Source of the DNA: Hyphomicrobium facile
Lineage (GTDB): Bacteria > Pseudomonadota > Alphaproteobacteria > Rhizobiales > Hyphomicrobiaceae
Assembly: GCF_900116175.1 (NCBI RefSeq)
Contig: NZ_FPCH01000003.1
Span: 248,001-312,000 of the forward strand
Reading direction: 5' to 3'
DNA length: 64,000 nt
The number at the start of each line of letters is the position of its first letter. Position 1 is the stretch's first letter. This document shows, piece by piece, positions 41,651 to 64,000 of this stretch. Below the pieces are notes generated by a model that worked only from the letters and a program-made list of their open reading frames with translations, was not told where the DNA came from and searched no databases. Position numbers and translations under genes: made by a program.

Positions 41651-42310
41651 TCAGTTATCTCTCGCGCAATAGCCCAGACCTCGACGGGTCTCGATTATTT
41701 TCACACCGAGCTTTCGCCTGAGGCGCAGAATAAGCGCCTCAATGGCGTTGGCTTCGCGCGGCTCATCGTTGCGATAGAGACGATCGCCGAGTTCCGTGCC
41801 GGGCACCACACGACCCTTGTGATGAAGCAGATAGCTGAGCAGCCGGTATTCCAACGCCGATAGGCGAATTGGACGACCTTCAACGGCCACCCTCATCGTG
41901 CTGGTGTCGAGCACCACGTCGCCTGCCGTTAGATGTGGCGCCGAATACCCATGCTTCCTGCGCAAAACTGCGCGGGCGCGAGCGATCAATTCCTCCATCT
42001 GAAACGGCTTCGTCAGAAAATCGTCGGCGCCCAAGTTGATGGCTTCGACCCGGGGCGACCATCCGGCTTTTTCGGCCATCGCGATGACGGCCATATCGCG
42101 GCCTTGCGTTCGCCAACGGCGCAACACGGTGAGGCCATCAAGCTGAGGAAGTGTCAGATCCAGGAAAACAACGTCGAAGTCTTCCGTCGCTCCGAGGAAC
42201 CAAGCATCGTCACCTTGCCTACAAACTTCCACGACGAAGCCAGCGGCAGCTAAACTCGATGCCATGACCTCCGCTGTGGTGACATCATCCTCGACGACGA
42301 GCGTTCGCAT
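41651..42310 (-). CDS. Orphan OmpR/KdpE-type response regulator
   Basis: From the ATG at 42310 this is a 219-residue two-domain regulator. The receiver domain has the acidic pair (VVEDDV, about 6-9), phospho-acceptor Asp51 (VVFLDLTLPQLDG) and Lys101 (LTKPFQ). The conserved switch Thr/Ser position is Ala (VIAMAEKAG). The C-terminal winged helix is OmpR-type (LSALEYRLLSYLLHHKGRVV; VIETRRGLGY-like end, with IIETRRGLGYCARDN). No histidine kinase gene is adjacent. It is divergent from the 661-residue secreted protein gene and is a candidate regulator of the T2SS cluster. Confidence 0.88.
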   Translation of the reverse strand: MRTLVVEDDVTTAEVMASSLAAAGFVVEVCRQGDDAWFLGATEDFDVVFLDLTLPQLDGLTVLRRWRTQGRDMAVIAMAEKAGWSPRVEAINLGADDFLTKPFQMEELIARARAVLRRKHGYSAPHLTAGDVVLDTSTMRVAVEGRPIRLSALEYRLLSYLLHHKGRVVPGTELGDRLYRNDEPREANAIEALILRLRRKLGVKIIETRRGLGYCARDN

Positions 42311-42907
42311 GTCCGTTCCGAGTCCGGGTATCGAGGCCCGCTTCCCTGCCCTCAAATAGAAGCGATCACTTATAACTTTGGTCGCTGAGGACGCGTTCAG
42401 CTTCAGTGCCGATGACTATTGATACCTAGAGACGCCGCGCTCTGCATCGGGCGGGAGACGAAGCATCGTCGCCCAAAGGTCTTACCCGGCCGGGACGAAG
42501 GTCTGACGCCAGGGACAGGCGTTCGCTCAGCTAACGAACGTTTTTTCGAAGGCTGTCATCATCGATCAACGATGGCCTCTTCAATTCGACTCGCGGCTGG
42601 TCGCCCGAGAGTTCCGGAACCTTTGCGTGCCCCCTTCGACCTAGGTCTCAGTTCGCTTCTTCGAAGGTCGGACCGGAACGACCCATCAGGATCAGCAAAA
42701 TCGCAGCCCGTTCGACCGTACCGGCCGGAAGCCATCCGCTTTAGCGTCAAAGCTGGAGCAATCCGCGCTCCGGCAATTCGTATTCCGCGTCGGCTACCGC
42801 CGCACCGGAAATGGCAGGCTCGGACAATCGCTCGAATGACGGTCATCAAGGATGAAGCGGCTCATCAGTTGGAGGGTGGTTCAGTGCTAAGGAGTGACGA
42901 ATACAAA
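42311..42907. promoter_or_regulatory. Divergent intergenic region, regulator / secreted protein
   Basis: This region of nearly 600 nt separates the response regulator from the secreted protein gene. It contains GGAGGG followed by GTG at 42884 and AAGGAG before the ATG at 42908, the two candidate starts. The sequence AACGAACGTTTTTTCG (42534-42549) is a candidate regulator site, not proven. The open frame from 42419 is low-quality (Arg/Pro-rich) and was not used. Confidence 0.4.
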
Positions 42908-44893
42908 ATGTCGAATTCAAAGGCGGCTCCGGCTGAGCAAGGAAAGCGCATTGTCAAATTCGCGGTCGCCATCGCGGCCTGTGTCGCTTTCGGCGCGACA
43001 ATGGCACTCGCAAAAGGCGGCACGGCCAAACCGCCGAACCCGAAGAACCCGCCGCCACCTGTCGGCGTGCTTCCGGCTCCTAGTCCTTTAACGAGGCTCA
43101 CTCCGGCTACGGTCAAACTATTGACTCCGCCGAGCGCCGCCGCGGATGCAGCAATCCACGGTTTCGACGTTACCGGATTTGTCGAAAGCTATGACGCATC
43201 GGCCACGTGCGCAGGCGGTGGTTCGGGCGGCAACGTCACGATCAACGGCACAAAAATCGTCATACCGTGTAATCTCGTCATCCAGATGCCGGCAAACACC
43301 ATCGCCTGGGCAGATTTTGTCTCCGGGCTCACAGGGCAAGTATCGCCTGAGCCCTACGATCTGGCATCGATCACAAGTGGCAGTCAGAATCCTTCGTTCG
43401 AACTTCACCTCGTCGGCAACATCGTCAATGGCACTTACATTGCGGCTCTCGGCTTTGCCTCGCAGCAATCCGTCAATAGCGGTGCCGGTATCATTTCAAG
43501 CATCGACCTATCGAACGGGCACATTGTCGTCGCGTCGAATGCCGGTACGACCGTCGAGCTTGAAATCAACGATCCGAGGGGCCGGTTCGGGCGCGTCACA
43601 AGCCGCGATGATCGGCTTTCCGTGGACGATGCCAATCCGACGATTGTCGCGTCGACCGGTTATCCGATGTGCGTGCCACGCTCCGCCAATGATCCGGAGT
43701 GCCCGCAGAAAAACCGTCCGACGAGCGTTGCCGGGTGCCGGGATTTCATAACCCCCGGAACCGGTGTCGGTGTGACGCCGGGCACCGCCGGAGCGGGCGT
43801 CTTCTTCAACAACGGCGCTAACGGCGGCCCAGCACCGGGCGGCGGCGTTTATTGCACCAGTTTCGTCATGAAAGCGCCCCCCGGGACAGCGCCAGATCCG
43901 ACCACCCTTTATCCGCCGCCTTCAGCGATAGCCTCGGCAACGGAACCTGATGCAACGAAGCAAGCTCCCTTCGAGCCCGGCGACCACATCACGTGGTCCG
44001 GATCTCTGATGCGTGGCGTTCCCGGCGCGAACGGCGTTGACGTCATCTCGGTGCACACGATCACCGCGGATATCGGCATCTTCACACAGCCGGGCACCCT
44101 CCCCGTATATCTGCATATGGGTGAATTCGGCTTGGCTGGCGACATCAACGCTGCCGGTCTTTCGATCGCCGGCATTCCTGAAGAAGTGCAAAATCGCATA
44201 TTCCTCGAGGCCGACGTCACCGACATCACGGCAATCGTTGATGCTTATCTCGTCGATCAGGATGGCTCAGGTTCGGGTTTTGAGGTCCAGCGCTGGATTA
44301 CACCGCTCAATATGACCGGCAGAACGAACGCCGGTTTGGACAGCGCGAAAGCAAGACCTATCGGATTTCAGGGCGGCGGTGTCGTGCCTGGTTCCGGCGT
44401 AGTATTTCCGAAGCCTGCAGGATTCGGAATTGAAGGTGGTATCGTTACGCAATTGGACGGCGCGCAGATCAGCCGGGCGCGGCTTCGGGCGACAAAAGCT
44501 ACTCCAGGGATCCTGACGTCACCGACCCGGACCATTCGCATCGTCGCAAGATCACTCTGCACACCGGCGAATATCAATCCGACTGACGGCGGCCTTTCCT
44601 ACTCGGGAGTTCCGTCGCTCACCACGACCCTCGGATGGACAGGCGTAAACAAATCGAACCCCAACGGCGCCACCGGCACCGCCGCCATCACTTCGGACGG
44701 CGCCACTTGTGTCAATCGGGCGATTGCCGGCAACGGCCTCTCGACCGGGCAGTATGTTGCTCCGGTATTCGAATTCATCTTCCCGGAAAATGTCGGCAGA
44801 GGCGATCCTATCGTCTCCAACAATTTCTGGGATCTGAATTTCCTTTCCGGAGATGCGACCGCGCCGGGCCCGCTCGTTCCTCAGCCGTGGTGA
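42908..44893 (+). CDS. Large secreted protein of unknown family
   Basis: From the ATG at 42908 the product is 661 residues; a GTG at 42884 with a better-spaced GGAGG would add 8. A signal peptide (IVKFAVAIAACVAFGATMALA) is followed by a Pro-rich linker, an OB-like segment (DVTGFVESYDASATCAGGGS, then TINGTKIVIPCNLVIQMPA), beta-rich Gly/Ala/Thr-rich domains, a Cys-containing middle (PMCVPRSANDPECPQ, GCRDF) and a Trp-terminated end (PLVPQPW). There is no transmembrane segment, so it is probably fully exported. It lies next to T2SS genes and is a strong candidate substrate. I do not recognise the family. Confidence 0.7.
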   Translation: MSNSKAAPAEQGKRIVKFAVAIAACVAFGATMALAKGGTAKPPNPKNPPPPVGVLPAPSPLTRLTPATVKLLTPPSAAADAAIHGFDVTGFVESYDASATCAGGGSGGNVTINGTKIVIPCNLVIQMPANTIAWADFVSGLTGQVSPEPYDLASITSGSQNPSFELHLVGNIVNGTYIAALGFASQQSVNSGAGIISSIDLSNGHIVVASNAGTTVELEINDPRGRFGRVTSRDDRLSVDDANPTIVASTGYPMCVPRSANDPECPQKNRPTSVAGCRDFITPGTGVGVTPGTAGAGVFFNNGANGGPAPGGGVYCTSFVMKAPPGTAPDPTTLYPPPSAIASATEPDATKQAPFEPGDHITWSGSLMRGVPGANGVDVISVHTITADIGIFTQPGTLPVYLHMGEFGLAGDINAAGLSIAGIPEEVQNRIFLEADVTDITAIVDAYLVDQDGSGSGFEVQRWITPLNMTGRTNAGLDSAKARPIGFQGGGVVPGSGVVFPKPAGFGIEGGIVTQLDGAQISRARLRATKATPGILTSPTRTIRIVARSLCTPANINPTDGGLSYSGVPSLTTTLGWTGVNKSNPNGATGTAAITSDGATCVNRAIAGNGLSTGQYVAPVFEFIFPENVGRGDPIVSNNFWDLNFLSGDATAPGPLVPQPW

Positions 44894-45012
44894 GGAACGG
44901 GTACTGAATGCCCGCGGACGCGCGAGTGCTGCTGCACTTGGGCGTCCGCTTCCTGAATGGAATAGCCCGCATCATTTTCGGGGCGGAATGCAAAGCTGTG
45001 GAGGATGTTTCA

Positions 45013-45594
45013 ATGCCCTTACCGTTTGCATCCGCGCTCGTTCGGAGCCGCTGCTTCGTCTCTCTCACCTTCGCCTTGTTGGGTGCTGGTGGAGTTTCGG
45101 CGGCGAACGTTTCACTCGAAATGGCGGCGGGGGACGCGCACGTCGTGGTCGAGGCCCAGGACGCGACTGTCCAGGACGTCTTGACGAAACTCTCCGAAAG
45201 CCGCGGCTTCAAAGTGGAACGCGCGGATCAAGCGCGAGACGACGCCAAAATAAGCGGTCGCTTTGAAGGGCCGTTCTCGCACGTTCTCGAGCGTGTCCTC
45301 GAGAAGGAAAATCATTTCATTGAGCACGGCCTGAACGAGTCCGGCACCATTGCCCGCGTCGTACTTTATGGCGCGCAGCCGGCTGCAACACCGCCAGCCG
45401 ACACGCCGACTTCATCCGCAGCGGTCGCTTCGCCCCCGCGCCCGAATCTCGTCGAGATCAAACCGCCCCAAAGAATACAGGCGACACCTTCTCAGCGCGC
45501 AACGAAACCTGCGTTTCTTCGGCGTTTAGTTCTCAACCGGCAAAAGCGGCCGTTGCAGACAATTGCGAATTCGGCTCCGCAGGCTGCGAAATAG
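45013..45594 (+). CDS. STN-like periplasmic protein, possible secretin accessory
   Basis: The ATG at 45013 has GGAGGA 7 nt upstream and gives 193 residues. A signal peptide (LVRSRCFVSLTFALLGAGGV then SAANV) precedes a domain that reads like the secretin/TonB short N-terminal fold: VVEAQDATVQDVLTKLSESR, then DDAKISGRFEGPFSHVLERV. The rest is a Pro/Thr/Ser-rich linker and a basic C-terminus. It is encoded between the 661-residue secreted protein and pseudopilin gspK1, ending 14 nt from the gspK1 stop. It may bind or pilot the secretin; this is inferred from fold resemblance. Confidence 0.6.
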   Translation: MPLPFASALVRSRCFVSLTFALLGAGGVSAANVSLEMAAGDAHVVVEAQDATVQDVLTKLSESRGFKVERADQARDDAKISGRFEGPFSHVLERVLEKENHFIEHGLNESGTIARVVLYGAQPAATPPADTPTSSAAVASPPRPNLVEIKPPQRIQATPSQRATKPAFLRRLVLNRQKRPLQTIANSAPQAAK

Positions 45595-45608
45595 GCGACG
45601 CGCCAAGA

Positions 45609-46514
45609 TCAATTGCCGGCGGCCAAAACGGAATACACGCACGAATCCAGTTCATCGCTTCCGGCGTTGCCGATGAGCTGATCGCCTTTGCGCCACTCCT
45701 TCAACAGGAAGCCGCCCCGCACGCGCGGCTCAAGTAGAATTGCTGCTTCTCGCGTAAAGCCGACCTTGGCATTCTTGCTTGAACGAACAGACACGCGGAT
45801 GCGGAGTGATCTTCTATCGGGCCGGTTTGAAACCTGGGCGGGAAGCGACAATGCCAATACTTCCGGACTCGCGATGGTGATGTCCGGCGCCGAACGACCG
45901 GAGTGCGTCGTGACAAGCGAACGGGCGCGCGCCAACACTTCCGGCGTCATGCCGAGAACCTGATCGAGTTCGCCCACGGTCAGGAATGGTGCGTTTTGTG
46001 GCCGATGGGCGAGCCCCGCCGCTTGATACTCCGGGGCTTCCGCGCCGCCGGGCGACGTTTCGGCGTCGGCATCACGGAAGTCGATGACTGCAGCGGTCAG
46101 GCTTTTTGGATTGTCGGCTCCGACGTGAGAGAAGAGCGCTTCAAGCACGTCGTTCGATGCAGAATTGATATCGATCAAGCCGGCCGCGGCGTTGACGGAA
46201 ATGGTGGCGACCTTATTGGAGACCGCGCAGCTGACCGGGGTGCCGTTCAGACGGAACGATCCGATGCGATCGATATCGCCACTCTTCCCCACGAGGTAGC
46301 GAATTGTGAGACGGGCGATGCCGTCGCTCAGCTCTCCGACTTCAGCGCCCCGAAGAATATTGGCATTCTGCTTAATATCGGTTGCGACGGTCCGCGAGAG
46401 GACGATGCTGACGAGCGCCAGGAGCGCCAGCGTAAAGAGGACGGGCAGAAGTATGAACCCGCCATCCCTCCGGTCGTCAGTCCCCGGGCGCACGAGTGTG
46501 GCGGCCATTCCCAT
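45609..46514 (-). CDS. gspK: T2SS minor pseudopilin GspK, set 1
   Basis: This 301-residue protein has a prepilin-like N-terminus (DDRRDGGFILLPVLFTLALL) without the Glu5 of other pseudopilins, as GspK normally does. The globular region contains the GspK SAM-like-domain signature ATISVNAAAGLIDINSASND, then VLEALFSHVG, and a metal-site-like FRDADAETSPGGAEAPEYQA. GspK caps the pseudopilus tip with GspI and GspJ. It is transcribed on its own, divergent from gspH1. A second, different gspK lies at 48.7 kb. Confidence 0.88.
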   Translation of the reverse strand: MGMAATLVRPGTDDRRDGGFILLPVLFTLALLALVSIVLSRTVATDIKQNANILRGAEVGELSDGIARLTIRYLVGKSGDIDRIGSFRLNGTPVSCAVSNKVATISVNAAAGLIDINSASNDVLEALFSHVGADNPKSLTAAVIDFRDADAETSPGGAEAPEYQAAGLAHRPQNAPFLTVGELDQVLGMTPEVLARARSLVTTHSGRSAPDITIASPEVLALSLPAQVSNRPDRRSLRIRVSVRSSKNAKVGFTREAAILLEPRVRGGFLLKEWRKGDQLIGNAGSDELDSCVYSVLAAGN

Positions 46515-46685
46515 TTACGATGTTCGATCCTGCTCCCGTAAAGCACAGCATAACAAAAACGGCCCAATCCGGCAAAGCATCCGCTATTTTCGATGAATGC
46601 TCTTATGGTACTTCAATCACGCACCGGAACCGCAAGATTCGAGTCCGCAATGCCAATCTGGCCAATACGCCGCCTAAAGAGCGAA

Positions 46686-47132
46686 ATGCGTGCGCCGGAT
46701 GCCGGCTTTACGCTTCTGGAGGTGCTCGTCGTTCTCGTGATCGTTGGACTGACGATCTCCGTCGCATGGGCGACAGTCCGCTCCAAAGAACCCGATCTTC
46801 GGATGCTGTCCACTCAGCTCGCGACGGAATTGAACTTCGCTCGCGTCTCGGCGATCGCCGAAAACCGCTCTGTTGCTATGATCGTCGACCAAAGCAGCAG
46901 AAGCCTGCGATCGACCTCGTCGCGGTCGGGGATGCATCTGCCTGACGCGGTTCGCATGACATTCTCGCCATTGGAAGGTATCGGCCGCGCAAGCGCCGGT
47001 AGCGGCCTCGTATTCTTCGCGGACGGTAGTTCTTCGGGAGGCGCGTTCAAGTTATCCGGTGGCTCGCACGCCGTCGTCGTTCGCGTCGATTGGCTGTCCG
47101 GTGCGGTGACGCGAGAGGAAGTCCGCCGATGA
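46686..47132 (+). CDS. gspH: T2SS minor pseudopilin GspH, set 1
   Basis: The ATG at 46686 gives 148 residues with a short prepilin leader (MRAPDAG then FTLLEVLVVLVIVGLTISV) and the Glu5 that docks pseudopilins together. The globular part (STQLATELNFARVSAIAENR) is GspH/FimT-like. Longer starts (46593, 46650) would give an unusually long leader. It is the first gene of an H-I-J operon, coupled to gspI by an ATGA overlap. Confidence 0.85.
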   Translation: MRAPDAGFTLLEVLVVLVIVGLTISVAWATVRSKEPDLRMLSTQLATELNFARVSAIAENRSVAMIVDQSSRSLRSTSSRSGMHLPDAVRMTFSPLEGIGRASAGSGLVFFADGSSSGGAFKLSGGSHAVVVRVDWLSGAVTREEVRR

Positions 47133-47527
47133 GTCGCGCTGACGGCAAGGACGCGGGCTTTGGACTTTTGGAGGCCCTCGTTGCTCTCGTGATCGTGGCG
47201 CTTACGCTTTCCGCGTTTTGGGCAACCATCGGCAGCGCGTACCGAGCGTCTCAGCGCTCCAAGAGCTACGCCGCATCAATCATTGCTGCGCGTTCTCAGC
47301 TCGATAGGATCGGCATGGATGACGCCCTGCAAAGCGGGATCTTTACCGGCACGTATCCGAATAGAGTTCACTGGCGAATGACCGTCACGCCGCTCGACAA
47401 GCAGGGGCCGGAAGGCGCTCAGCCACGGAATTCGCCCGCCTATTGGATATCGCTCGAAGTTCTAGATCGGCAGGGGAAAGACCTGTTTGTATTGGAAACC
47501 GCGAAAGTCGCCGGCGGCATGCCATGA
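47129..47527 (+). CDS. gspI: T2SS minor pseudopilin GspI, set 1
   Basis: This 132-residue protein starts at the ATG at 47129, overlapping the gspH1 stop by 4 nt. It has the prepilin leader MSRADGKDAG then FGLLEALVALVIVALTLSAF, with Glu5, and a small globular domain that carries GspI-like features (ASIIAARSQLDRIGMDD). Its stop overlaps gspJ1 by 4 nt. GspI is the partner that assembles with J and K at the tip. Confidence 0.86.
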   Translation: MSRADGKDAGFGLLEALVALVIVALTLSAFWATIGSAYRASQRSKSYAASIIAARSQLDRIGMDDALQSGIFTGTYPNRVHWRMTVTPLDKQGPEGAQPRNSPAYWISLEVLDRQGKDLFVLETAKVAGGMP

Positions 47528-48192
47528 CCAATCAGACCGACGTTCGCTCAGGGGAAGCCGGATTCACGTTGATCGAGATGCTGGTGTCGCTCGCCCTTCT
47601 TGCACTTATTTCGGTGACTCTCATCCAGATGATCTACGGAGCCCGCCGGGTATTGAACTTCGTCGACCGGGCGAATGCCGCCGCGCCCATCATGAGTGCG
47701 CAGAATTATTTGCATGATGCCTTGGTGGATTTGCAGCCAATCGATACCGCGGCGGTCGGCAACCGAACTGTTCCCGGCGTGCAGGGGGATTCAAATCATA
47801 TCGCCTTCACAACGGCGCATGCGCCGCGCGGGGCCTATCAGGGGCTTTATAGGGTCAGTGTCGGACCCTCGCCGAACGGGCGAGGCGGCTTCGATCTCGT
47901 TGCCGAGCAGGAGCTCTTTCGTCCGAATGCGGATGAGGCAGCGTCTGCTCCGCGTCTGAGATCGAAGCTTGTCGAGAATATAGCGAGCGTAAACTTTTCG
48001 TACTTCGCGAAACGCGATGACGAAGGCGGCAGTCATTGGCAATCGAATTGGAATTCCGGCATTCCCGACATGATATCGGTCGACGTTGTCTTCCCCAAGA
48101 ACGACGTCCGAAGGTGGGAACGGATGATCGTCTCCGTTGCAGCGGCCGCAACGTACGGCATCAGGTGCCCCAATCGCGTCAATTGCGACTGA
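47524..48192 (+). CDS. gspJ: T2SS minor pseudopilin GspJ, set 1
   Basis: The 222-residue protein begins at the ATG at 47524 (ATGA overlap with gspI1). The leader and first helix are DVRSGEAG then FTLIEMLVSLALLALISVTL. The globular domain includes GFDLVAEQELFRPNADEAAS and the C-terminal RCPNRVNCD with two Cys. It is the last gene of the H-I-J operon and ends 10 nt from the convergent small Cys-rich gene. Confidence 0.86.
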   Translation: MTNQTDVRSGEAGFTLIEMLVSLALLALISVTLIQMIYGARRVLNFVDRANAAAPIMSAQNYLHDALVDLQPIDTAAVGNRTVPGVQGDSNHIAFTTAHAPRGAYQGLYRVSVGPSPNGRGGFDLVAEQELFRPNADEAASAPRLRSKLVENIASVNFSYFAKRDDEGGSHWQSNWNSGIPDMISVDVVFPKNDVRRWERMIVSVAAAATYGIRCPNRVNCD

Positions 48193-48202
48193 CGCCTATT
48201 AT

Positions 48203-48517
48203 CTAATGCTGTCTTCGCGGCCCGCCGAGCTTCATCGGGTATCCGGCGCCGTGCGGCGCTTCGTAGAATGGTCCCTGCGGGTATGCCGAGCGTTCGCGCT
48301 CCGTGCAATAGCGCTGGCCATTGACCTCGGTGTAGCAGTAGCGGCCACAATACTCCCTCTGCCGCATCCAATAGCAACCGCGATGTTCCGGGCCCGCCGG
48401 ATTGGGATATGCCGGAACCGGATGGATTCGGCCTGCCTGGACCGGTTCACTGCCGATCATGAGAGTGGCTGCTGTACACGCCAGCAAGGTCACGGCCAGA
48501 AACTGGATTATTCGCAT
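48203..48517 (-). CDS. Small secreted Cys-rich protein within the T2SS cluster
   Basis: From the ATG at 48517 this is a 104-residue protein: a signal peptide (FLAVTLLACTAATLMIGSEP, then VQA), then an Arg/Pro/Tyr-rich chain with four Cys in the compact section GCYWMRQREYCGRYCYTEVN, then GQRYCTERER. The short cystine-like core suggests a disulfide-bonded periplasmic or secreted peptide. No family is recognised. It sits between gspJ1 and gspK2 and is transcribed with gspK2, 176 nt downstream of it. Confidence 0.6.
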   Translation of the reverse strand: MRIIQFLAVTLLACTAATLMIGSEPVQAGRIHPVPAYPNPAGPEHRGCYWMRQREYCGRYCYTEVNGQRYCTERERSAYPQGPFYEAPHGAGYPMKLGGPRRQH

Positions 48518-48693: not shown

Positions 48694-49626
48694 TCAGCAA
48701 CGCGGCAGTCCGACTATCGAGGGCCATTGACGTTGCTGGCTCGTTCCGCGTGCGCGGTTCCAGATTTTGAAGACGGGCATGGCGCCCTTTCCGGTTGGAA
48801 TTTCGAATCCGGCTTCGCGAACGAATGTTGCTCCGCCGTCCAGACGAGCGGCGACGGTTATTTCAAAAAAGTGGCGTCCCGAGGCGACGATGAATTCCGA
48901 AGGCAACCGGCCTTGCGCCAACGACGATACGTCCGCATGCGGAAGTTGACCGTACCCGCGCGTTACGATGTCGGCCAACCGGGCCGACGTGGTCTCTGGA
49001 TCAAGTCCCGCCGTGCCCGAATAGAGCGTTACGTAGGGCCATATCGCTTCGATCATTTTAGGATCGAGCCCGAGGACTTGATGTAGTTCTTCGCGACTAT
49101 CGAACGCCGTATTCTTCGGTCCCCACGTTCCGCCAGCTGCTAAGTATTCGTCGCGCTCCGCCCCATTTATCCGCCTGTCGTCATCGCGATCCCTGAAATC
49201 GATGATGCGATCGGCGTAAAGGGTTGCAGCGACCGGCGTGGCTCCGAGACCGATGAAAAGCGCGGACAGCAACTGATCGTCGGCCAAGTTCAGGTTGATT
49301 TTTCCGCCGGCTTCTTGAACCGCGATGACGAGTTCTGCGCCCTCGTCGGTGTGACAGGCCCATTCGGCTCCGTCGATCGGGAAGCGGCGTGTGCGACCCG
49401 TATCGCGCTCTGTCGCAAGCTCGAGGGCCGCGATATTGACGCCCGCGTCGGCGGCAAACTCTGCCTGCGCGGAATGCGCAATGCCGGATGCCTCGCGCAG
49501 ATAGCTCTGCACGGCGCGGGAAAAGACAGCGGCAACGAGCCCGAGCAGGATGCACATCGCCAAAACGACGACGAGGATGAAGCCGCCTTCGTCGTGCCTA
49601 TCGGGGCGCATTTGCGTCGAGCCCAT
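48694..49626 (-). CDS. gspK: T2SS minor pseudopilin GspK, set 2
   Basis: This 310-residue pseudopilin has the N-terminus PDRHDEGGFILVVVLAMCIL, again lacking Glu5, and the family sequence EAGGKINLNLADDQLLSALF, with FRDRDDDRRINGAERDEYLA resembling the calcium-binding region of GspK. It is clearly different from the first GspK. It begins 26 nt after gspD on the same strand, so the secretin and this tip protein are probably co-expressed. Confidence 0.9.
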   Translation of the reverse strand: MGSTQMRPDRHDEGGFILVVVLAMCILLGLVAAVFSRAVQSYLREASGIAHSAQAEFAADAGVNIAALELATERDTGRTRRFPIDGAEWACHTDEGAELVIAVQEAGGKINLNLADDQLLSALFIGLGATPVAATLYADRIIDFRDRDDDRRINGAERDEYLAAGGTWGPKNTAFDSREELHQVLGLDPKMIEAIWPYVTLYSGTAGLDPETTSARLADIVTRGYGQLPHADVSSLAQGRLPSEFIVASGRHFFEITVAARLDGGATFVREAGFEIPTGKGAMPVFKIWNRARGTSQQRQWPSIVGLPRC

Positions 49627-52010: not shown

Positions 52011-52510
52011 CGCTACTCTCATGTGCGATTCGTGGCCGATGCTCAGTCTCGAATTGAATATATAGGGTGGGTTACTAACAACCCTGGAAAAAGCCGTTTC
52101 ATTCCCTCACTACCGGGTATCTCGCGAACCCTCCGCATTCCTCCCTTCAGTCAACAGACCATATCACTATTTGCACAGATCATTTTGCGCAAACGCGTGA
52201 TGGCGATTTGGATCCCTCTGCGCGAGTCTGTTGTATATTTGACCCGCGCCGATTTCGTTCGCGCCACGACTCCCCTCGCAAATTGCGCAGCCCAGCCGCG
52301 GCGCATCAGACCAAAGTCTGATCGCATTCAGGACGAAGGGGCATGCTTGAGCGACCTAATCACCCGGAAACAGGTGCGTAGCGGATTTGCGAAGACTTCC
52401 ATTAACTCGACGGGCACCGATGTGCCGCTTGGCAGGGTCGGAGGCGTTCGTTCCCGGGCGATTACTCGGGCAGTTGTCGTTTGTTTCATCCAGTGCGCGG
52501 GGCAATTTCC
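52011..52510. promoter_or_regulatory. Divergent intergenic region, gspD / multicopper oxidase
   Basis: About 500 nt separate gspD (minus) from the multicopper oxidase gene (plus). An imperfect inverted repeat (AGGGTGGGTTACTAACAACC, then CT, starting near 52064) is close to the gspD start. I found no confident promoter boxes. The open frames here have no coding signature. Confidence 0.4.
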
Positions 52511-56060: not shown

Positions 56061-56621
56061 CTACCTGTTGAGAGCGGCCGCTTTGATATCCGATGACCGC
56101 GCGTCATAGGAGATCCGCAGTTCGTACTGCTTGCCTTCGCTTTCTATGACGGCCATTTCGCTGCTGATCGTGCGGACTCGCCAACCCTGGATCGAGTCAC
56201 CGATCAGCATCCAGCTTCCCAGATCATCGCTCGCTTCCCGGATCAATGCGCGATCGTCGCCCACGCCGATGTGGAGTATGCCGACGAGCAGCAACTGCTC
56301 CGGTGCGACCGTCGCCGCTGCGGGAACAGGTGTCGCATCGGCCACCGCTACTTTCTTCGCTTCGACCGGCCGGCGGGAAGCATTGAATATTGGCCGCGTC
56401 GTCGTCTCAGAAAGATTGCCCGGCCGAGGCGGCGGTGCGATTGCGGTTGCGTCGGCGTCCGCGATCGTCTTTTCGCCAGCCGCGGCGCCGTCGAGGTCGG
56501 CCGATATGTCGATCGGTCGAGACCACAGATCCCAGGCTATGTACGCAAAGGCGACATTTGTCGCCACGAGAGCAGCGATATTCAAATGGCTGCCGGAGAT
56601 CTTGCTTTTACTCGCTGACAT
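56061..56621 (-). CDS. T2SS GspC/GspN-like inner-membrane protein
   Basis: From the ATG at 56621 (187 residues) this is a single-span protein (LNIAALVATNVAFAYIAWDL) with a periplasmic homology-region-like domain: TTTRPIFNASRRPVEAKK, EQLLLVGILHIGVGDDRALI and SWMLIGDSIQGWRVRTISSE. GspC bridges the inner-membrane platform and the secretin N0 domain. There is no PDZ domain, so it is a minimal version. The much longer upstream frame overlaps gspM and is not used. It is the last gene of the L-M-C operon, starting 1 nt after the gspM stop. Confidence 0.75.
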   Translation of the reverse strand: MSASKSKISGSHLNIAALVATNVAFAYIAWDLWSRPIDISADLDGAAAGEKTIADADATAIAPPPRPGNLSETTTRPIFNASRRPVEAKKVAVADATPVPAAATVAPEQLLLVGILHIGVGDDRALIREASDDLGSWMLIGDSIQGWRVRTISSEMAVIESEGKQYELRISYDARSSDIKAAALNR

Positions 56622-56622
56622 A

Positions 56623-57201
56623 TCACTCACTCTTCGCACGCAACGCCACCGCATATACGTCAAACCGCGCATCGAGCGCGCCGGCATCATCCTCGTTCGA
56701 TCCGCCCCCCGACGGGGAAGGCGTGATTTGCAGATAATCGACGAGCAAAGCCGGCTGGTGCCCTTCGATGTCGAGAAGAACCTTTTGCAGCTTTTCGATG
56801 GGCGCCACGATCTGCACTTGCGCACCGACGAGGTGGAGATCACCGCGATCGCGGCCAGGAAGACCGCGCGTCAATCTCGGCTTCACGCCATCGGCCGCCA
56901 TGATCTGCGCCAGCTGCGACTGAACGGAGGCCAGTCGAATGGCTTCACTCGCGCCTTCAATGAATAGTCCGCCGTTTCGCGCGGCCTCAGCCTGCTGGTC
57001 CAAATCGCGAATGGAGTCACGATCGTTGACGATCGTCTGCAACCGGCCCAGCACCTTGCGCTCGCGTTCCAGACTGTCCTTGAGTTCAGACTCGGGCGCC
57101 ATGAGCGGGATCACGGCAAGCACGGACACACACCCGACCACGAGCAGAACAAGGCCGACTGCAAGAAGTTGCCGCACTGGCTTCGAGACGCGGTAGATCA
57201 T
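56623..57201 (-). CDS. gspM: T2SS assembly-platform protein GspM
   Basis: This 192-residue bitopic protein has one N-terminal helix (LLAVGLVLLVVGCVSVLAVI), a helical stretch (ERERKVLGRLQTIVNDRDSI) and a ferredoxin-like periplasmic domain (VQIVAPIEKLQKVLLDIEGH). This matches the GspM/PilO-like group. It partners GspL in the inner-membrane platform. Its start overlaps the gspL stop by 4 nt. Confidence 0.82.
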   Translation of the reverse strand: MIYRVSKPVRQLLAVGLVLLVVGCVSVLAVIPLMAPESELKDSLERERKVLGRLQTIVNDRDSIRDLDQQAEAARNGGLFIEGASEAIRLASVQSQLAQIMAADGVKPRLTRGLPGRDRGDLHLVGAQVQIVAPIEKLQKVLLDIEGHQPALLVDYLQITPSPSGGGSNEDDAGALDARFDVYAVALRAKSE

Positions 57202-58301
57202 TGCGCTTCTTCCCCTGTCTTCTCCACGTCCTCCGGAACGTTGCGCAAGCGTACGCGAATGCCGAAGCGTTCCTTGTCCTGGAGTGGGTCAAAGGTCAGA
57301 GCGGAGGTCGACGTAGCATCGACAAACAGCGGAGACTTCTCGAGGATCGGAACAAGCGCGCTCGCAGATGCCGCGAGCCCGGAGATGTCCACCGTCACGC
57401 CGCTGATCTTAATGTCCGTCACCCAAGCCGAATCCGGCAGAAGCCGCGTCAGCTCTTCGAGGATGGCGACACGCGAAACCGATTCTCTCCGAAGCTGATT
57501 GAAACTCGCAATCGCTGACGCCGTGGACCGGTATTTCGTTGTCATGTCGCGAACGGACTTTGCTTCGACCTTCAGACTCGCCGTTTCGGACTGCAACTCG
57601 GCGAGCGCCGCTTGATGCCTCGCGATATCGATATACGCGCCAGCCGCCGCGAGCAGGAGGGCGAGACCGGCAAGCCCGATCAAGAGCTTGATCCGCGCAC
57701 CCGCACTGCGGGACGGCTCTTCGAGAAAATTTATTGGGACGATCGAACCGGCCTCGTTCGAGCACGCGACGGCGGTCACCTTGAGGCCTAGCGCCTCGAT
57801 GTCTGATCTCAGCGCATCGACGAGGGTTTTCTTGATGATGTATTGCCGGACCGATTGCTTCCAACCACCGCTTTGCGACTGGTCCACGGTGTAGGCGGTA
57901 TAAACATCATTTTGCTTGAATGGCGTCGAGCGCTCGAGATCGAGAGAGAGCAGCGTCGCGAAATCGCGGGCGGCAGCGCCCGGAAGAGTGACATTGCGTA
58001 CGAAACACGCCCGATGCGGGAGACGTATGCCAACCGTCGCCGACGGGTTTGCGCGAACGATACCAGCGAGCAGCGATAGCAACTCCGGCAATGCGAGAGG
58101 GGCCTCGTCCGAAGAATTCGTCGACGTCGTCCGGTGCCTGCGCGGTTCGATCAGGCGGTAACCCGCGGGTTGGAGGACGACCACCGTATAGATGTTGGGA
58201 TTATCTGAAGCCGCCGCGGGCGACGCCGATACGATGCCGGCCAGCTCTGCGCCCCACCACGTGAAAAAGCGTGAGAACGGATCGGAAATCGACGCCAACA
58301 T
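57198..58301 (-). CDS. gspL: T2SS assembly-platform protein GspL (PilN-domain)
   Basis: The 367-residue protein has a cytoplasmic actin-like part (IRLPHRACFVRNVTLPGAAA, ATLLSLDLERSTPFKQNDVY), a transmembrane helix (IKLLIGLAGLALLLAAAGAY) and a periplasmic PilN/GspL domain (VAILEELTRLLPDSAWVTDI, VDISGLAASASALVPILEKS). GspL recruits the GspE ATPase to the membrane. It heads the L-M-C operon, divergent from the prepilin peptidase gene. Confidence 0.82.
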   Translation of the reverse strand: MLASISDPFSRFFTWWGAELAGIVSASPAAASDNPNIYTVVVLQPAGYRLIEPRRHRTTSTNSSDEAPLALPELLSLLAGIVRANPSATVGIRLPHRACFVRNVTLPGAAARDFATLLSLDLERSTPFKQNDVYTAYTVDQSQSGGWKQSVRQYIIKKTLVDALRSDIEALGLKVTAVACSNEAGSIVPINFLEEPSRSAGARIKLLIGLAGLALLLAAAGAYIDIARHQAALAELQSETASLKVEAKSVRDMTTKYRSTASAIASFNQLRRESVSRVAILEELTRLLPDSAWVTDIKISGVTVDISGLAASASALVPILEKSPLFVDATSTSALTFDPLQDKERFGIRVRLRNVPEDVEKTGEEAQ

Positions 58302-59231: not shown

Positions 59232-59699
59232 ATGAAAATACCTTTTAAGTGCGGCAATCGAAACGTCGCCAATGGCGTCGTTTATGACGATGCAAAAGAC
59301 GACTCCGGCTTTACATTGCTGGAGCTTCTCGTTGTGCTTGGAATTATCGCCCTTTTGGCGACCGTCGCCGCCCCGCAAGTGCTGGGCTATCTCGGCAAGG
59401 CACGCACGGGAACGTCGAAAGCGCAGATCTCCGCCATTTCGACGGCGCTCGAACTCTACGCTTTGGATATGGGCACCTACCCTTCACAGCAGGCGGGCCT
59501 CAATGCGTTAGTCCAGGCGCCGCCGCGCGCCGGTGCTTGGAAGGGCCCATACCTCAAGAAAGCCGAGGGGCTCGTCGATCCGTGGGGCCATCCGTATCAA
59601 TATAAATTTCCGGGGCCTGGCGGCGGTCCTCAAGTCTACACCCTCGGGCGTGACAACAATCCCGGCGGCACCGGCGAAGATCAGGATGTCTCGAATTGA
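59232..59699 (+). CDS. gspG: T2SS major pseudopilin GspG
   Basis: The ATG at 59232 gives 155 residues. The leader is fairly long (about 26 residues, ending DAKDDSG), then FTLLELLVVLGIIALLATVA, with Glu5. The globular domain is clearly GspG: YALDMGTYPSQQAGLNALVQ, GPYLKKAEGLVDPWGHPYQY and TLGRDNNPGGTGEDQDVSN, the calcium site. GspG polymerises into the pseudopilus fibre. It is the only GspG in the window, although two sets of minor pseudopilins are present. Confidence 0.93.
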   Translation: MKIPFKCGNRNVANGVVYDDAKDDSGFTLLELLVVLGIIALLATVAAPQVLGYLGKARTGTSKAQISAISTALELYALDMGTYPSQQAGLNALVQAPPRAGAWKGPYLKKAEGLVDPWGHPYQYKFPGPGGGPQVYTLGRDNNPGGTGEDQDVSN

Positions 59700-59708
59700 T
59701 GCGCAGCG

Positions 59709-60362
59709 CTACGGCTGTGGCCGAAGATGCAATTCAACGCGCCTCGAGCGAACTCCAGAACGGCCATCCGGCAACTTGTATGTAAATTCCACAAGTGTCG
59801 GCAGGGCGTCTTTTTTCGTCCATTTGTCAGTCCACTGTGCTTTTGTGCTGTGCGCCGAAGCGCCGAAGTAGCTCAGTGTGAAACCCGTTGCATCGGCCAG
59901 CAAAATCCGCTGGCCCTCGGACTGCGGCGCGTCCCGGTGATCGGAAACGGACCGGAATGGTTGCCAAGTCAGGGCAAGCGATTGACGATCATTCGATGCA
60001 GCAACCGTCGACAACGAAAACAGGAAGAGCCCGCTCTGTTGATCCCGGCTGATCATCGGCGCGACGAACTTTACCGCGCGGGGCTCGCCGCTGAACACCA
60101 TCGCGAGCATCCCATCGGGAGAATTTCGATAAATCGGCATCGCTTCCGACAGGTGGCGCTCGAGGAAGGCGAGCGAGGCGGTTGTAACAGATTCCTGGTC
60201 GAGCTTTGCCGTAACATTAAATGCGCTTTTGGTGATGCGCAGAGCATGCGGCAGCGCCGCCAACAAAAGCGAAATCAGCACCAACGACACGAGCACTTCG
60301 AGTAATGTAAACCCGGCCTCTTCTGGTTTGAGGCGCGTGTGTTCTCGCACGATGCTCGTCAT
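59709..60362 (-). CDS. gspJ: T2SS minor pseudopilin GspJ, set 2
   Basis: This 217-residue pseudopilin has the N-terminus EHTRLKPEEAG then FTLLEVLVSLVLISLLLAAL, with Glu5, and a globular domain with AMPIYRNSPDGMLAMVFSGE and DATGFTLSYFGASAHSTKAQ, typical of GspJ. It is the last gene of the E-F-H-I-J operon, overlapping gspI2 by ATGA. Its stop is 9 nt from the gspG stop. Confidence 0.86.
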   Translation of the reverse strand: MTSIVREHTRLKPEEAGFTLLEVLVSLVLISLLLAALPHALRITKSAFNVTAKLDQESVTTASLAFLERHLSEAMPIYRNSPDGMLAMVFSGEPRAVKFVAPMISRDQQSGLFLFSLSTVAASNDRQSLALTWQPFRSVSDHRDAPQSEGQRILLADATGFTLSYFGASAHSTKAQWTDKWTKKDALPTLVEFTYKLPDGRSGVRSRRVELHLRPQP

Positions 60363-60772
60363 GACGATGGGAAGAGCTTCAAGGTCGTCAGGCTGATTTT
60401 TCTCGGCCGCAGGCCGCCCTCACGCCAATTCACCTCGACAGTCACCCAGTATCCGTCGATTTTTGCCTGCGCTTCCGGGGGCGGCTCCGGCTTATATTTT
60501 GAAGCCGCCAACTCCCAAGACATTCCGCCGCTCACGCCAGTCTCGTGCCGCGCATCCTCGACGGCTTCTGAAGTGCCCGCCGATTGCAGAACGGATCGCG
60601 CGATTTCCAGGGCCTCAGCTTCTCCATTGGCGATCCGGATGCTCTGCATGCCCCGCCCGAGCGCATACTGCGCTACGACAAAGGCGCTGGCAAAAATGAC
60701 GAGGGCCACAATCGCTTCGATAAGGGTGAACCCGTCGTCACGGGTTCCTGAGAACTTAAAAGCTGCGGTCAA
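60359..60772 (-). CDS. gspI: T2SS minor pseudopilin GspI, set 2
   Basis: This 137-residue pseudopilin has the leader MTAAFKFSGTRDDG and helix FTLIEAIVALVIFASAFVVA, with Glu5. The mature domain (IANGEAEALEIARSVLQSAG; DGYWVTVEVNWREGG) fits GspI. It overlaps gspH2 by 17 nt and gspJ2 by 4 nt, indicating translational coupling. Confidence 0.85.
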   Translation of the reverse strand: MTAAFKFSGTRDDGFTLIEAIVALVIFASAFVVAQYALGRGMQSIRIANGEAEALEIARSVLQSAGTSEAVEDARHETGVSGGMSWELAASKYKPEPPPEAQAKIDGYWVTVEVNWREGGLRPRKISLTTLKLFPSS

Positions 60773-61223
60773 CTTGGGTTGCTCCGGTCATCCAATCGAC
60801 GATGACATGGGCCTTGCTTTTGCCGGCGCTGAGCGAAACCCTTCCGCCGGTAGAGCTGCCGTCCGGCTCAAAACTCAACGTCGCAAGCGCCGTCGATCCG
60901 GAATTGCCGAACGTTGCGGAAACCTCTACGGCCGCAGGGATCTGATGAGCGTTGCTCTCGCCGTCTGCCCAATACTTGCGCCGTGCGACATCGATCATGA
61001 CCGACCGGCTCGTGCTCGTGCGTATGGCATCGGCGCGCGCGGTGCGAAATTCAGCAGCGATACCTACGGCCGTGCTTCGGAGCGCCAACGCACCACTCTC
61101 GCCTCGCGTCTTCGGGAATGCGATGGCCGCCGTGACGGCGATGATGACCAGAACGACAAGCAATTCCAGCAGCGTGAATCCCGCCTCCGTCTCGACCACT
61201 GACCGATGCCGTCCGCGGATCAT
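60756..61223 (-). CDS. gspH: T2SS minor pseudopilin GspH, set 2
   Basis: The 155-residue protein has the leader MIRGRHRSVVETEAG and helix FTLLELLVVLVIIAVTAAIA, with Glu5, and a GspH/FimT-like globular domain (AAEFRTARADAIRTSTSRSV, LSFEPDGSSTGGRVSLSAGK). It overlaps the gspF stop by 4 nt. It resembles GspH1 in layout but differs clearly in sequence. Confidence 0.85.
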   Translation of the reverse strand: MIRGRHRSVVETEAGFTLLELLVVLVIIAVTAAIAFPKTRGESGALALRSTAVGIAAEFRTARADAIRTSTSRSVMIDVARRKYWADGESNAHQIPAAVEVSATFGNSGSTALATLSFEPDGSSTGGRVSLSAGKSKAHVIVDWMTGATQVDRSF

Positions 61224-62446
61224 TGCAAAGCCAGGTTGTTGACGCTCAGGATCGCGTTCATAACCGAGACAATGAGGCCACCGACCATCAGGCCGATAAG
61301 CAGCGTCAGCACGGGGGTAAGCAGCGTCATCAGGCGGGAAATCTGGCGCGCAAGCGTCGCCTCATAAATGGTGGCGACGCGCGTCAGCATCGGTTCGAGC
61401 TGGCCCGTTTGCTCGCCGACAGCGATCAAGCGGAGCGACAATTCGGAGAAAAGGCCCGACTGCTCGAGCGGCTTTGAAAGCGTGCCGCCTTCCTTCAAAG
61501 TTTCGCCGGCCTGCGTGACTGCTGTCGCGAATGCGCGGTTTCGGAGAACAGCTGCGGATATTCGAACAGCGTCGAGCATCGCGACGCCGTTGCGAGTGAG
61601 CGTCGCAAGCGTGCGCGCGAGACGGGCCGTTTCCCGGTTCGCGGAAAAGCGGCCAAGCAACGGCACGCGAAGAAACGCTCTATCCAGCCATCGACGGAAC
61701 CCTGAGTTGCGGAACACCAGTACAATCGCAACGACAAGCCCCGCGGCAACGGCCGCGGCGAGAGCCCAATTTTGCAAGACAAACGATTCCGCATCGACGA
61801 GAAACTGGAGAAACGGAGGCGGCGGAGCGCCTGCATCTTTGAATAGAGGCAGCACGGTCGGCACGAGTAGGGTCAGAATAACGCCGACGGCGACGGCTGC
61901 TGCCGCCATGAGGATCGCCGGGTAAACCAGGGCGGAAGATATTTGCGATCTAAGCTCCGCTGAGCGTTCGAGAAAGCCGCTTATGTCTTCGAGCACATCT
62001 CCAAGCGATCCGCTTGCTTCTCCGGACTCAACGAGCCTCCAATAATATTCAGGAAAATCCTGGCCGCGAGCCGCCATGGCACCTGACAGTGAAGAGCCCC
62101 CGCGCACGGCTTCGAGTATGGCCTGAGTGCACTTTCGGACTCGTGCCGGCATGAGAGGCTGGAGACTGACGATGCGCAGCGCTTCATCCAGCGGCAGATC
62201 AGCATTGATCAGGATTGAAAGTTCGCGGGTAAATAACGCCAAGCCGGAAAGGGGCAGCGAGCCGCCGCCGAAGACCTCGCGTTCCCACCACCGTTGTCTC
62301 CCCGTTGGCTTGGCCTCGAGGAGATCCAACGTGTAGAAACTTTGCTTATGAAGCGCTTCCAGCGCTGCTTCGCGCGAACGTGCCTCGATATCACCCTTCT
62401 TTAAGGCGCCGTGCTGATCGTAGGCTCTGTATCGGAATTGAGGCAT
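61220..62446 (-). CDS. gspF: T2SS inner-membrane platform protein GspF
   Basis: The 408-residue protein has the typical start MPQFRYRAYDQHGALKKGDI, two T2SSF helical repeats (LALFTRELSILINADLPLDE; RETARLARTLATLTRNGVAM) and hydrophobic helices near 170-190, 225-245 and 375-400. GspF is the polytopic core on which the GspE motor acts. The start lies 46 nt inside the 3' end of gspE in another frame, an unusually large overlap. Confidence 0.94.
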   Translation of the reverse strand: MPQFRYRAYDQHGALKKGDIEARSREAALEALHKQSFYTLDLLEAKPTGRQRWWEREVFGGGSLPLSGLALFTRELSILINADLPLDEALRIVSLQPLMPARVRKCTQAILEAVRGGSSLSGAMAARGQDFPEYYWRLVESGEASGSLGDVLEDISGFLERSAELRSQISSALVYPAILMAAAAVAVGVILTLLVPTVLPLFKDAGAPPPPFLQFLVDAESFVLQNWALAAAVAAGLVVAIVLVFRNSGFRRWLDRAFLRVPLLGRFSANRETARLARTLATLTRNGVAMLDAVRISAAVLRNRAFATAVTQAGETLKEGGTLSKPLEQSGLFSELSLRLIAVGEQTGQLEPMLTRVATIYEATLARQISRLMTLLTPVLTLLIGLMVGGLIVSVMNAILSVNNLALQ

Positions 62447-64000
62447 GTATCAAACCGGGCTACGCGCATAACTTCTTCGACCGTCGTCTCGCCTTTAAGT
62501 GCCTTCAGCAGTCCTGCTTGTAGCATGGTCGTCATACCCTGAGCCATGCTCACTCTTTCTATTTCCCCTTCTGAGTTACCGATCGAAATGGTGTCGCGAA
62601 TCTCTTCCGACATCGTGAGCAACTCATAGATCGTCGTGCGGCCGGAGAACCCCGTCTGCCGGCATGACGGACATCCGACCGCGCGGTGCAGCCGTGGTTC
62701 TTGGCCGTTCATCAGCGCGATCGGATCGGCCCCTGTCGACCGCAGCCAGCGCAAAACGCGAGGTGTTTCCGGCGATGGCTGCGAGCAGTTCGAGCAAAGC
62801 TTCCGAACAAGCCTTTGTGCGAGCACGCCCTTTACGGTGGACGCGAGCAGATATTTTTCAACGCCCATGTCCAACAGCCGTGTCAAGGTCGCAGCGGCGC
62901 TGTTGGTGTGAACGGTCGATAGCACCAGATGCCCGGTCAACGACGCCTGAATAGCGATCTGCGCCGTTTCGAGGTCGCGTATTTCGCCAACCATGATGAT
63001 GTCGGGATCCTGACGGAGGATCGAACGCAGGGCCGTCGCAAAGTTCAGGCCGATCTTTGGTTGCACTTGAATTTGATTGACGCCGGGAAGCTGGTACTCG
63101 ATCGGGTCTTCGACGGTGAACACCTTGCGTTCGGCCGAATTCAAAAGACTTAGCGCCGTATAAAGCGTCGTGGTCTTGCCGCTTCCGGTCGGGCCGGTGA
63201 CCAAGATTATTCCGTTCGGCTGGTCCAACAGCTGCCGGAGATCATCGTACGATCCCCCTGAGAAGCCGAGCTTCGGAAAGTCGAGCTCGACGCTGCTACG
63301 ATCAAGAAGCCGGAGGACGATGCTTTCGCCCCATAATGTCGGCATCGTCGAGACGCGGAGATCAATCTCTCGTCCGCGGACATTGACCTTGATGCGGCCG
63401 TCTTGGGGAAGGCGCCGTTCGGCAATATTCAGACGCGCCATGATCTTGACGCGTGAGCCAAGGGCCTCTCGGACGTTGATCGGCAGCGTCTCTATAGTAT
63501 GCAGAATGCCGTCGAGACGGATGCGCACCCGCACGCAGTCTTCGCGCGGTTCAATGTGGATGTCTGACGCCTGCTCGTTGGCGGCGCGCACGATGAGGTC
63601 TTGGACAAGGCGGATGACCGGCGCTTCGCTGGCCATGTCCTCAAGGCGCTGGACGTCAGCGTCACTCGCTTCGGCGGCCGACGCCGAGGAGCCGGCATCG
63701 ATTTCGGGCTTCGCGCCGTTGCTACCGTAGAGCTTCCCGATCGCTTTTTCGATGTCTCCGAAGGCTGCGATACAAAGTTCAATTGGCCGGCCCAGCAAGT
63801 AGGCGATCGCAGCAACGCCGTCGCGATTGAAGGGATCGGCGACCGCGAGCTCGATCATTTCGCCTTTGTCGGCCAGCGGTAGCACGCCGCTCTGCTTCAG
63901 AAAGGCGGCATCTATTTCCTCGGAGAATAGCGCTCGCTCCGGAAACGCGTTTTCCGAGACAAGCGGAAGGCCGCAGTATGCCGACAGGGCTTTCGCCATA
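62401..64000 (-). CDS. gspE: T2SS ATPase GspE (5' end outside the window)
   Basis: This hexameric ATPase drives pseudopilus assembly. The frame runs off the window end; the first visible ATG (63999) opens with MAKALSAYCGLPLVSENAF, which in relatives is internal, so about 30-50 N-terminal residues are probably missing. Visible landmarks (numbered from that ATG) are Walker A GPTGSGKT (269-276), Asp box and Walker B DPDIIMVGE (331-339), the His box (STVHTNSAAAT) and the zinc-binding pairs CSNC (402-405) and CPSC (443-446). It heads the E-F-H-I-J operon. Confidence 0.95.
   Translation of the reverse strand, partial: MAKALSAYCGLPLVSENAFPERALFSEEIDAAFLKQSGVLPLADKGEMIELAVADPFNRDGVAAIAYLLGRPIELCIAAFGDIEKAIGKLYGSNGAKPEIDAGSSASAAEASDADVQRLEDMASEAPVIRLVQDLIVRAANEQASDIHIEPREDCVRVRIRLDGILHTIETLPINVREALGSRVKIMARLNIAERRLPQDGRIKVNVRGREIDLRVSTMPTLWGESIVLRLLDRSSVELDFPKLGFSGGSYDDLRQLLDQPNGIILVTGPTGSGKTTTLYTALSLLNSAERKVFTVEDPIEYQLPGVNQIQVQPKIGLNFATALRSILRQDPDIIMVGEIRDLETAQIAIQASLTGHLVLSTVHTNSAAATLTRLLDMGVEKYLLASTVKGVLAQRLVRKLCSNCSQPSPETPRVLRWLRSTGADPIALMNGQEPRLHRAVGCPSCRQTGFSGRTTIYELLTMSEEIRDTISIGNSEGEIERVSMAQGMTTMLQAGLLKALKGETTVEEVMRVARFDTCLNSDTEPTISTAP

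Follow-up and report, generated by a model that had tools for sequence, protein, structure and literature searches.

Proposed export of a multicopper oxidase in Hyphomicrobium facile

By what route do Mn(II) oxidases leave the cell, and how does a type II secretion system (T2SS), whose substrates carry no known sequence signal, choose its cargo? Both questions are raised by a gene cluster of Hyphomicrobium facile (genome of 4.43 Mb in 5 contigs) that fills the last 22 kb (positions 41651-64000) of the window analysed here, a stretch of 64,000 nucleotides from contig NZ_FPCH01000003.1. In this cluster T2SS genes are interleaved with others, including those for a multicopper oxidase (MCO) and for a fusion of an SCO domain with cytochrome c (Table 1). 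The original prediction, made from the letters of the window, had read an MCO with a twin-arginine translocation (Tat) type signal, the SCO-cytochrome c fusion, a large secreted protein of 661 residues and a response regulator, all interleaved with T2SS genes, as a candidate dedicated export system for an extracellular copper oxidase; these genes all lie where it had placed them. We consider it likely that the cluster is indeed a copper-oxidase export module, combining Tat export, SCO-assisted copper loading, release by the T2SS and extracellular oxidation, most likely of Mn(II). Below, L numbers denote loci and G numbers genomes in the comparisons.

Linkage of the oxidase to type II secretion genes

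We searched the surroundings of related MCO genes (the best 80 of 369 relatives from a named collection), calling a locus linked when two or more of gspD, gspE, gspF, gspG and gspL lay nearby (in L093, gspD and gspK). T2SS genes were found near the MCO in 40 of the 80 loci; 18 were unlinked, and 22 had too little flanking sequence to judge. Linkage could be called on short flanks, whereas a locus counted as unlinked only with 8 kb on each side, so that the fraction of 40 among 58 decided loci is inflated by this difference; when 8 kb of flank was required on each side for every locus, 26 of 44 were linked. The nearest T2SS open reading frame (ORF) was a median of 277 bp from the MCO among the 40 linked loci. 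Counted by genome, 40 of 65 had a linked copy, 8 had unlinked copies only and 17 were undecided. Linked members occur in Hyphomicrobium, Rhizobium, Ensifer, Bosea, Aurantimonas, Rhodobacterales, Nitrospira and others. The SCO gene starts near the end of the MCO gene, on the same strand, in 59 of 63 strong SCO ORFs. Conserved linkage in relatives, which the original prediction had named as its test, is therefore observed, and two genomes of the same genus, G1228 (GspE 98%) and G1218 (93%), have the whole cluster, from the 661-residue protein gene through a MauG-like gene lying beyond gspE. Export of a copper oxidase, as proposed, is supported overall by this recurrence.

As a control, 20 other MCO loci of the order were read over 12-20 kb each, and none had T2SS genes; the control is imperfect, the loci having been chosen with the CopA model and just 3 scoring above its cut-off. 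The distribution of the MCO and of the 661-residue family is rare and patchy. In the order sample the MCO was found in 10 of 397 genomes, with T2SS genes beside it in 4 of the 12 relative loci read; it occurred in 1 of 289 genomes of its own class (the H. facile genome itself) and in 3 of the 274 from the class that includes G485, and the 661-residue family in 2 of 299 genomes of the phylum. Seven plasmid records carried relatives at E 1e-50, all below 60% identity.

The secretion lineage and its replacement oxidases

The GspE of the window falls in a clade of 12 rows (support 100/100), apart from the three other GspE proteins of its genome. Proteins this close to it (E <1e-150) occur in 25 of the 103 genomes of the family; in each of these the flanking genes were read, on short contigs in some cases. 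In 14, this MCO and an SCO gene lie beside the T2SS. Four more (G344, G1262, G1254 and G1253) have other copper oxidases together with SCO beside gspC, assigned by the Pfam models Cu-oxidase and SCO1; the replacement oxidases lie between gspD and gspC in G344, and on the gspC side, with gspD out of view, in the other three. G1250 showed SCO only, on a 5-kb contig. A copper oxidase and SCO thus persist beside this T2SS lineage across oxidase families. The word dedicated, used in the original prediction, stands for the T2SS lineage as an exporter of copper oxidases, which it fits better than a single enzyme family; a strict one-to-one tie to this MCO family was rejected, since the same lineage also occurs with different copper oxidases, or with no copper oxidase in view.

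Two further observations were made at loci of this comparison. In L232 (13049-16459) the slot between gspD and gspC is filled by two short copper-oxidase proteins and SCO instead of the MCO of the window type, the first of the two appearing, by eye, to lack some copper ligands. In G1183 a repeat-rich, CRISPR-array-like stretch lies just before gspE (L251, ~9800-15700).

The multicopper oxidase

The MCO of the window keeps all eleven copper ligands (ten His and one Cys). In the 81 rows compared (the window and its 80 relatives, L116 being a partial MCO) each ligand is conserved in 80-81; the exceptions are L113, at 3 sites, and L055, at 1 site. A motif of the twin-arginine type precedes a hydrophobic stretch in 79 of the 81 proteins, by a pattern that admits KR, and reads TKRDLFR in the window; Pfam TAT_signal gave no match there, and we take Tat export to be predicted by the conserved motif. 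An AlphaFold2 model had a mean predicted local distance difference test (pLDDT) score of 72.6 (VIA Z 28.9, rmsd 2.6, 431 aligned), and in the model a cupredoxin fold of the CotA/CueO/bilirubin-oxidase type spans the chain. Among solved structures, bilirubin oxidase, CotA and CueO are nearest to it in both sequence and fold, and the protein scores below the cut-offs of all five NCBIfam models that it matched (CopA 30.4 vs 479 bits, CueO 64.4 vs 525 bits).

MCO tails vary by lineage, being poly-Asp, Gly/Ser-rich, immunoglobulin (Ig) or dockerin (L098, L103, L075 and the window at ~54870-54955). The MCO copy of L113 (10001-12082) lacks part of one copper-binding motif and lies beside a full T2SS, which may reflect sequencing error or decay.

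Manganese as the candidate substrate

The family includes one enzyme with reported activity. According to passages of PMC11708043, GE001273, an MCO of Georhizobium sp. MAB10, oxidises Mn(II) in vitro as a recombinant protein. The GE001273 primers given there match both ends of the MCO of L077 (Rhizobium albus) with zero mismatches, and the mass of the latter, 87.2 kDa, agrees with the published value of 100.7 kDa for GE001273 fused to SUMO. The L077 gene lies beside a T2SS, its product is 60% identical to the MCO of the window, and both fall in one MCO clade of 22 rows. Through this primer identity, the MCO of the window appears homologous to the GE001273 type of Mn(II) oxidase.

The sister of the L077 MCO in the tree is that of Aurantimonas manganoxydans (L075), which is likewise linked to a T2SS. 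Titles and passages on this species attribute its Mn(II) oxidation to a haem peroxidase, and therefore the MCO of this species could be an additional oxidase or have another role. G1204 has an ORF of 3149 residues with repeated animal-haem-peroxidase and haemolysin-type calcium domains, ~3.4 kb from the gspK of a T2SS that also has this MCO; a similar giant haem-peroxidase/RTX protein lies beside the T2SS of G391, and in G1253 part of one lies where the contig breaks off. The passages of PMC6247904 at hand describe this peroxidase/calcium-repeat architecture for MopA. A search of the H. facile genome with PF03098 (MopA-type peroxidase) gave no match, and neither did its control. The recorded positions of giant proteins of the animal-haem-peroxidase/RTX kind near the same T2SS lineage are 5973-14264 in L227 and 10552-19998 in L250.

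From the match to GE001273, the relative in A. manganoxydans and the MopA-like giants, Mn(II) is the leading candidate substrate, and the MCO of the window is probably an Mn(II) oxidase. Its pairing with a T2SS suggests that the machine places an Mn-oxidising enzyme outside the cell.

Candidate partner proteins and minor pseudopilins

The 661-residue protein has no match in Pfam or NCBIfam and none in the PDB below E 0.1, and an AlphaFold model from 4 sequences had a mean pLDDT of 30. Its homologues lie near MCO genes in Hyphomicrobiaceae, in Nitrospirota and in G739, from another class; the type is also present in G1238. Beyond gspE, outside the window (L007), we found a MauG-like protein of 778 residues with two CxxCH haem sites, scoring below the NCBIfam cut-offs for MbnH (78.9 vs 363 bits) and MauG (67 vs 444 bits). 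Within the visible flanks of the 80 MCO loci, the 661-residue family was found in 5 (with the MauG-like family in L054, L097 and L118, alone in L057 and L060) and the MauG-like family in 3. G739 (L206, 3785-12605) has MauG-like, 661-residue-type, MCO and SCO genes in a row, with no T2SS seen on its contig of 13.5 kb, and in G380 (L192, 11895-16250) a single ORF of 1452 residues joins a MauG-like di-haem part to a part of the 661-residue type.

In some lineages these proteins have similar ends. In the Nitrospira locus L118, He_PIG Ig repeats form the C-terminal ends of three unrelated proteins, the MCO, the MauG-like and the 661-residue-type protein, and the MauG-like and MCO tails are identical at 101 of 179 positions. 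In G739 the same three end in dockerin-like repeats (identities of 68/102 between the MauG-like and 661-residue-type proteins, and 30/63 between the MauG-like protein and the MCO; the repeats of the MCO are weak in Pfam, E 0.014, and clear in the alignment). The SCO proteins of these two loci end in neither module. Such common C-terminal modules would be a shared address outside the cell. In L118 (558-22313) the genes of these three proteins are followed by a second, different MCO gene, with SCO and with gspG, gspF and gspE.

The cluster also has a feature that the original prediction did not mention, two different H-I-J-K sets of minor pseudopilins (45609-49626 and 59709-61223) in one T2SS whose core genes are otherwise single. 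GspK of set 1 pairs with that of L097 and GspK of set 2 with that of L054, and the two GspJ proteins pair in the same way at lower support (Table 1). Set 1 lies close to the 661-residue protein gene in the window; L097, which also has this gene, shows the set-1 type only, and in L054 the gspH beside its 661-residue protein gene is closer to set 1. Cargo-specific pseudopilus tips are possible on this evidence. On balance doubtful, and offered as a tentative extension, is a scheme in which two interchangeable tips on one T2SS (set 1 with the 661-residue protein, set 2 with the oxidase) would export an extracellular redox complex of three parts: the copper oxidase, the 661-residue protein as scaffold and the MauG-like enzyme maturing that scaffold. 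Some lineages would mark all three by a common C-terminal module that fixes them together outside, leaving the SCO loader unmarked in the periplasm.

If the 661-residue protein or the MauG-like enzyme were the main cargo of the T2SS, the MCO would be an accessory. The presence of the 661-residue protein gene together with a whole minor-pseudopilin set speaks for this, as does the fusion in L192; given that, within the visible flanks, the two families were found at so few of the 80 MCO loci, against 40 with T2SS genes, we regard it as very unlikely.

Evidence against export and against manganese

Several observations weigh against export of an Mn(II) oxidase by this T2SS. Eighteen of the 44 well-flanked MCO loci fail the T2SS criterion, and 10 of the 18 unlinked loci sit in genomes that also have a linked copy; L065, one of the 18, has a gspD-type gene alone. 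Six other genomes of the genus in the order sample lack the MCO (two further ones carry it). In the T2SS lineage, no copper gene was seen in 6 of the 25 genomes (G391, G1184, G1192, G1194, G1188 and G1183), a result limited in the first three by contigs that break off directly. The approximately unbiased (AU) test did not reject (p 0.30) a common origin for the linked T2SS of the Rhizobium and Hyphomicrobium types. A quick GspE tree, with long-branch warnings, had suggested an independent origin of each T2SS-MCO pairing; the AU test did not uphold it, and independent pairings are therefore not claimed. As for the substrate, the axial position of the type 1 (T1) copper site, residue 741, is Leu in the MCO of the window, as in 4 of 81 proteins, and Met in the rest. 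In laccases an axial Leu goes with higher redox potential. Because of this residue, the reported activity of GE001273 need not carry over to the window. That activity was itself low, each umol of enzyme yielding 5.84 umol of Mn oxide overnight with Cu added, and the outer-membrane placement of GE001273 is a prediction, according to the same passages of PMC11708043.

The unlinked loci would be expected if the MCO stayed in the periplasm, serving copper tolerance or cytochrome-linked oxidation, while the T2SS exported other proteins and the genes were neighbours through shared regulation or as one transferred island. Many Tat-exported MCOs, such as CueO, are periplasmic, and an SCO-cytochrome c protein is a periplasmic kind of partner. 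Set against this are the linkage, which recurs in different orders and phyla and in varying gene arrangements, the exchange of this MCO for different copper oxidases next to one T2SS lineage, and the Ig or dockerin tails common to the MCO, MauG-like and 661-residue-type proteins; we therefore hold a periplasmic oxidase to be unlikely. A T2SS-exported module that acts on Fe(II), on phenolics or on lignin-like polymers instead of Mn(II), or that serves electron exchange with solids as has been proposed for Geobacter OmpB, is a stronger contender, if still somewhat unlikely. The bilirubin-oxidase/CotA-like fold is a broad oxidase fold and GE001273, the single family member known to have been tested, had the low turnover given above; the L077 primer match, the A. 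manganoxydans relative and the MopA-like peroxidases near the T2SS of G1204 and G391 argue for Mn(II).

Proposed route and its implications

In the export module that we favour, the folded MCO would cross the inner membrane by Tat through its conserved twin-arginine motif and would receive copper in the periplasm, aided by the SCO-cytochrome c fusion. The co-encoded T2SS would then carry it across the outer membrane, to a predicted place at the cell surface where it would oxidise a substrate outside the cell, most likely Mn(II), and pass the electrons to O2. Where their genes are present, the 661-residue protein and the MauG-like di-haem enzyme would reach the same place as partners, the SCO protein remaining periplasmic.

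The retention of an oxidase and SCO beside the T2SS lineage despite oxidase replacement opens the way to a direct genetic test in culturable Rhizobium, Ensifer, Aurantimonas and Hyphomicrobium of soil and water, and the linkage predicts which of the several T2SS per genome to knock out. It also adds the MauG-like enzyme and the uncharacterised 661-residue protein as candidate partners.

Gene content of the cluster

Pfam domains, the best-matching equivalogs and the order of the genes identify E, F, H, I, J, K, L and M of the T2SS. GspD and GspG exceed their NCBIfam equivalog cut-offs; GspE and GspF match their own equivalogs best, with scores below cut-off. The MCO and the 661-residue protein have one match each in the genome, which encodes five GspD-size secretins plus a shorter one. 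In the 19-20 kb around each of the four other GspD-size secretins we found no homologue of the MCO, SCO, MauG-like or 661-residue proteins; a homologue of the small protein of the cluster adjoins one of these gspD genes.

Two labels of the original prediction were not confirmed. The small protein, called STN-like, has no Pfam match at E 1 and did not match the GspD of the cluster with a two-sequence profile. The response regulator, called an orphan, is not a lone regulator, since a LuxR-type response regulator, an OmpR-type one similar to it (3e-74) and two histidine kinases lie beyond gspE, outside the window. Elsewhere in the window are two efflux genes of the resistance-nodulation-division (RND) type (10091-14469 and 25646-28789).

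Table 1. Features of the secretion cluster in window coordinates, in gene order; paired values are tree supports.
Feature	Position	Strand	Evidence and remarks
OmpR-type response regulator	41651..42355	-	Pfam Response_reg 2e-24, Trans_reg_C 1e-16; paralogue at far cluster end
661-residue protein, signal peptide by eye, candidate co-exported partner	42908..44893	+	homologues near MCO elsewhere
Small protein (earlier STN-like)	44908..45594	+	start may be further in
GspK, set 1	45609..46514	-	T2SSK_1st 2e-16; groups with L097 GspK, 97/95
GspH, set 1	46593..47132	+	Pfam GspH 5e-7
GspI, set 1	47129..47527	+	N_methyl and XpsI-type matches; start is a chosen ATG
GspJ, set 1	47524..48192	+	N_methyl, weak T2SSJ; groups with L097 GspJ, 92/93; start is a chosen ATG
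GspK, set 2	48694..49626	-	T2SSK_1st 2e-14; groups with L054 GspK, 99/98
GspD secretin	49653..52022	-	TIGR02517 444 bits, above cut-off 351
Spacer between divergent gspD and MCO genes	52023..52510	.	same gspD/MCO layout in 8/80 loci
Tat-type three-domain MCO, 814 residues, Gly/Ser-rich tail	52511..54955	+	Pfam Cu-oxidase_2 5e-10
SCO1/SenC-cytochrome c fusion	55041..56060	+	SCO1-SenC 1e-18, Cytochrom_C 2e-10, CxxCH at 239
GspC-like	56061..56621	-	GspC_delta 17.7 bits (cut-off 150); position, conservation beside GspM
GspM	56623..57201	-	T2SSM_b 5e-15
GspL	57198..58301	-	PilN domain 9e-13; position; no T2SS-L equivalog match
GspG major pseudopilin	59232..59699	+	T2SSG 1e-32; TIGR01710 130 bits, above cut-off 89
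GspJ, set 2	59709..60362	-	T2SSJ 2e-4; groups with L054 GspJ, 82/91
GspI, set 2	60359..60772	-	XpsI 4e-9, gspI 1e-4, both below cut-off
GspH, set 2	60756..61223	-	N_methyl 2e-6; homologues
GspF	61220..62446	-	T2SSF 2e-44; TIGR02120 346 bits, below cut-off 424
GspE, cut by window edge	62401..64000	-	TIGR02533 622 bits for the truncated protein (cut-off 630)

Comparison with known systems

Among the matches listed in the literature searched, which left most subscription journals outside it, we found no description of a linkage between T2SS genes and a copper oxidase, which is weak evidence of novelty. As an enzyme, the MCO has the three-domain fold and the ligand set in common with CotA, bilirubin oxidase and CueO; it differs from them in being ~300 residues longer and linked to a T2SS. 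In Pseudomonas putida GB-1, a T2SS-type (Gsp-related) pathway has reportedly been tied to Mn oxidase secretion, as we propose for the window. The resemblance extends to an SCO-family gene in the mnxG operon, described in passages of PMC8218464.

GE001273, known here through the primer match to L077, belongs to the same family as the MCO of the window. The text of PMC11708043 ties no T2SS or SCO to it, type II secretion appearing just once, in a cited title, and SCO nowhere, and in comparison with L077 the MCO of the window has a Gly/Ser tail and the axial Leu. The Geobacter protein OmpB differs in being called a MofA homologue, and the passages of PMC5566968 at hand place no T2SS gene set beside ompB. 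It is similar in that, judging by the title of Mehta 2006, it is an MCO at the outside of the cell tied to an atypical T2SS; further likenesses, from passages of PMC5566968, are SCO1 and cytochrome c genes in the ompB cluster and a fibronectin-III module on OmpB. The predicted T2SS export of a metal-active MCO from the cluster of H. facile would thus be of a kind already known.

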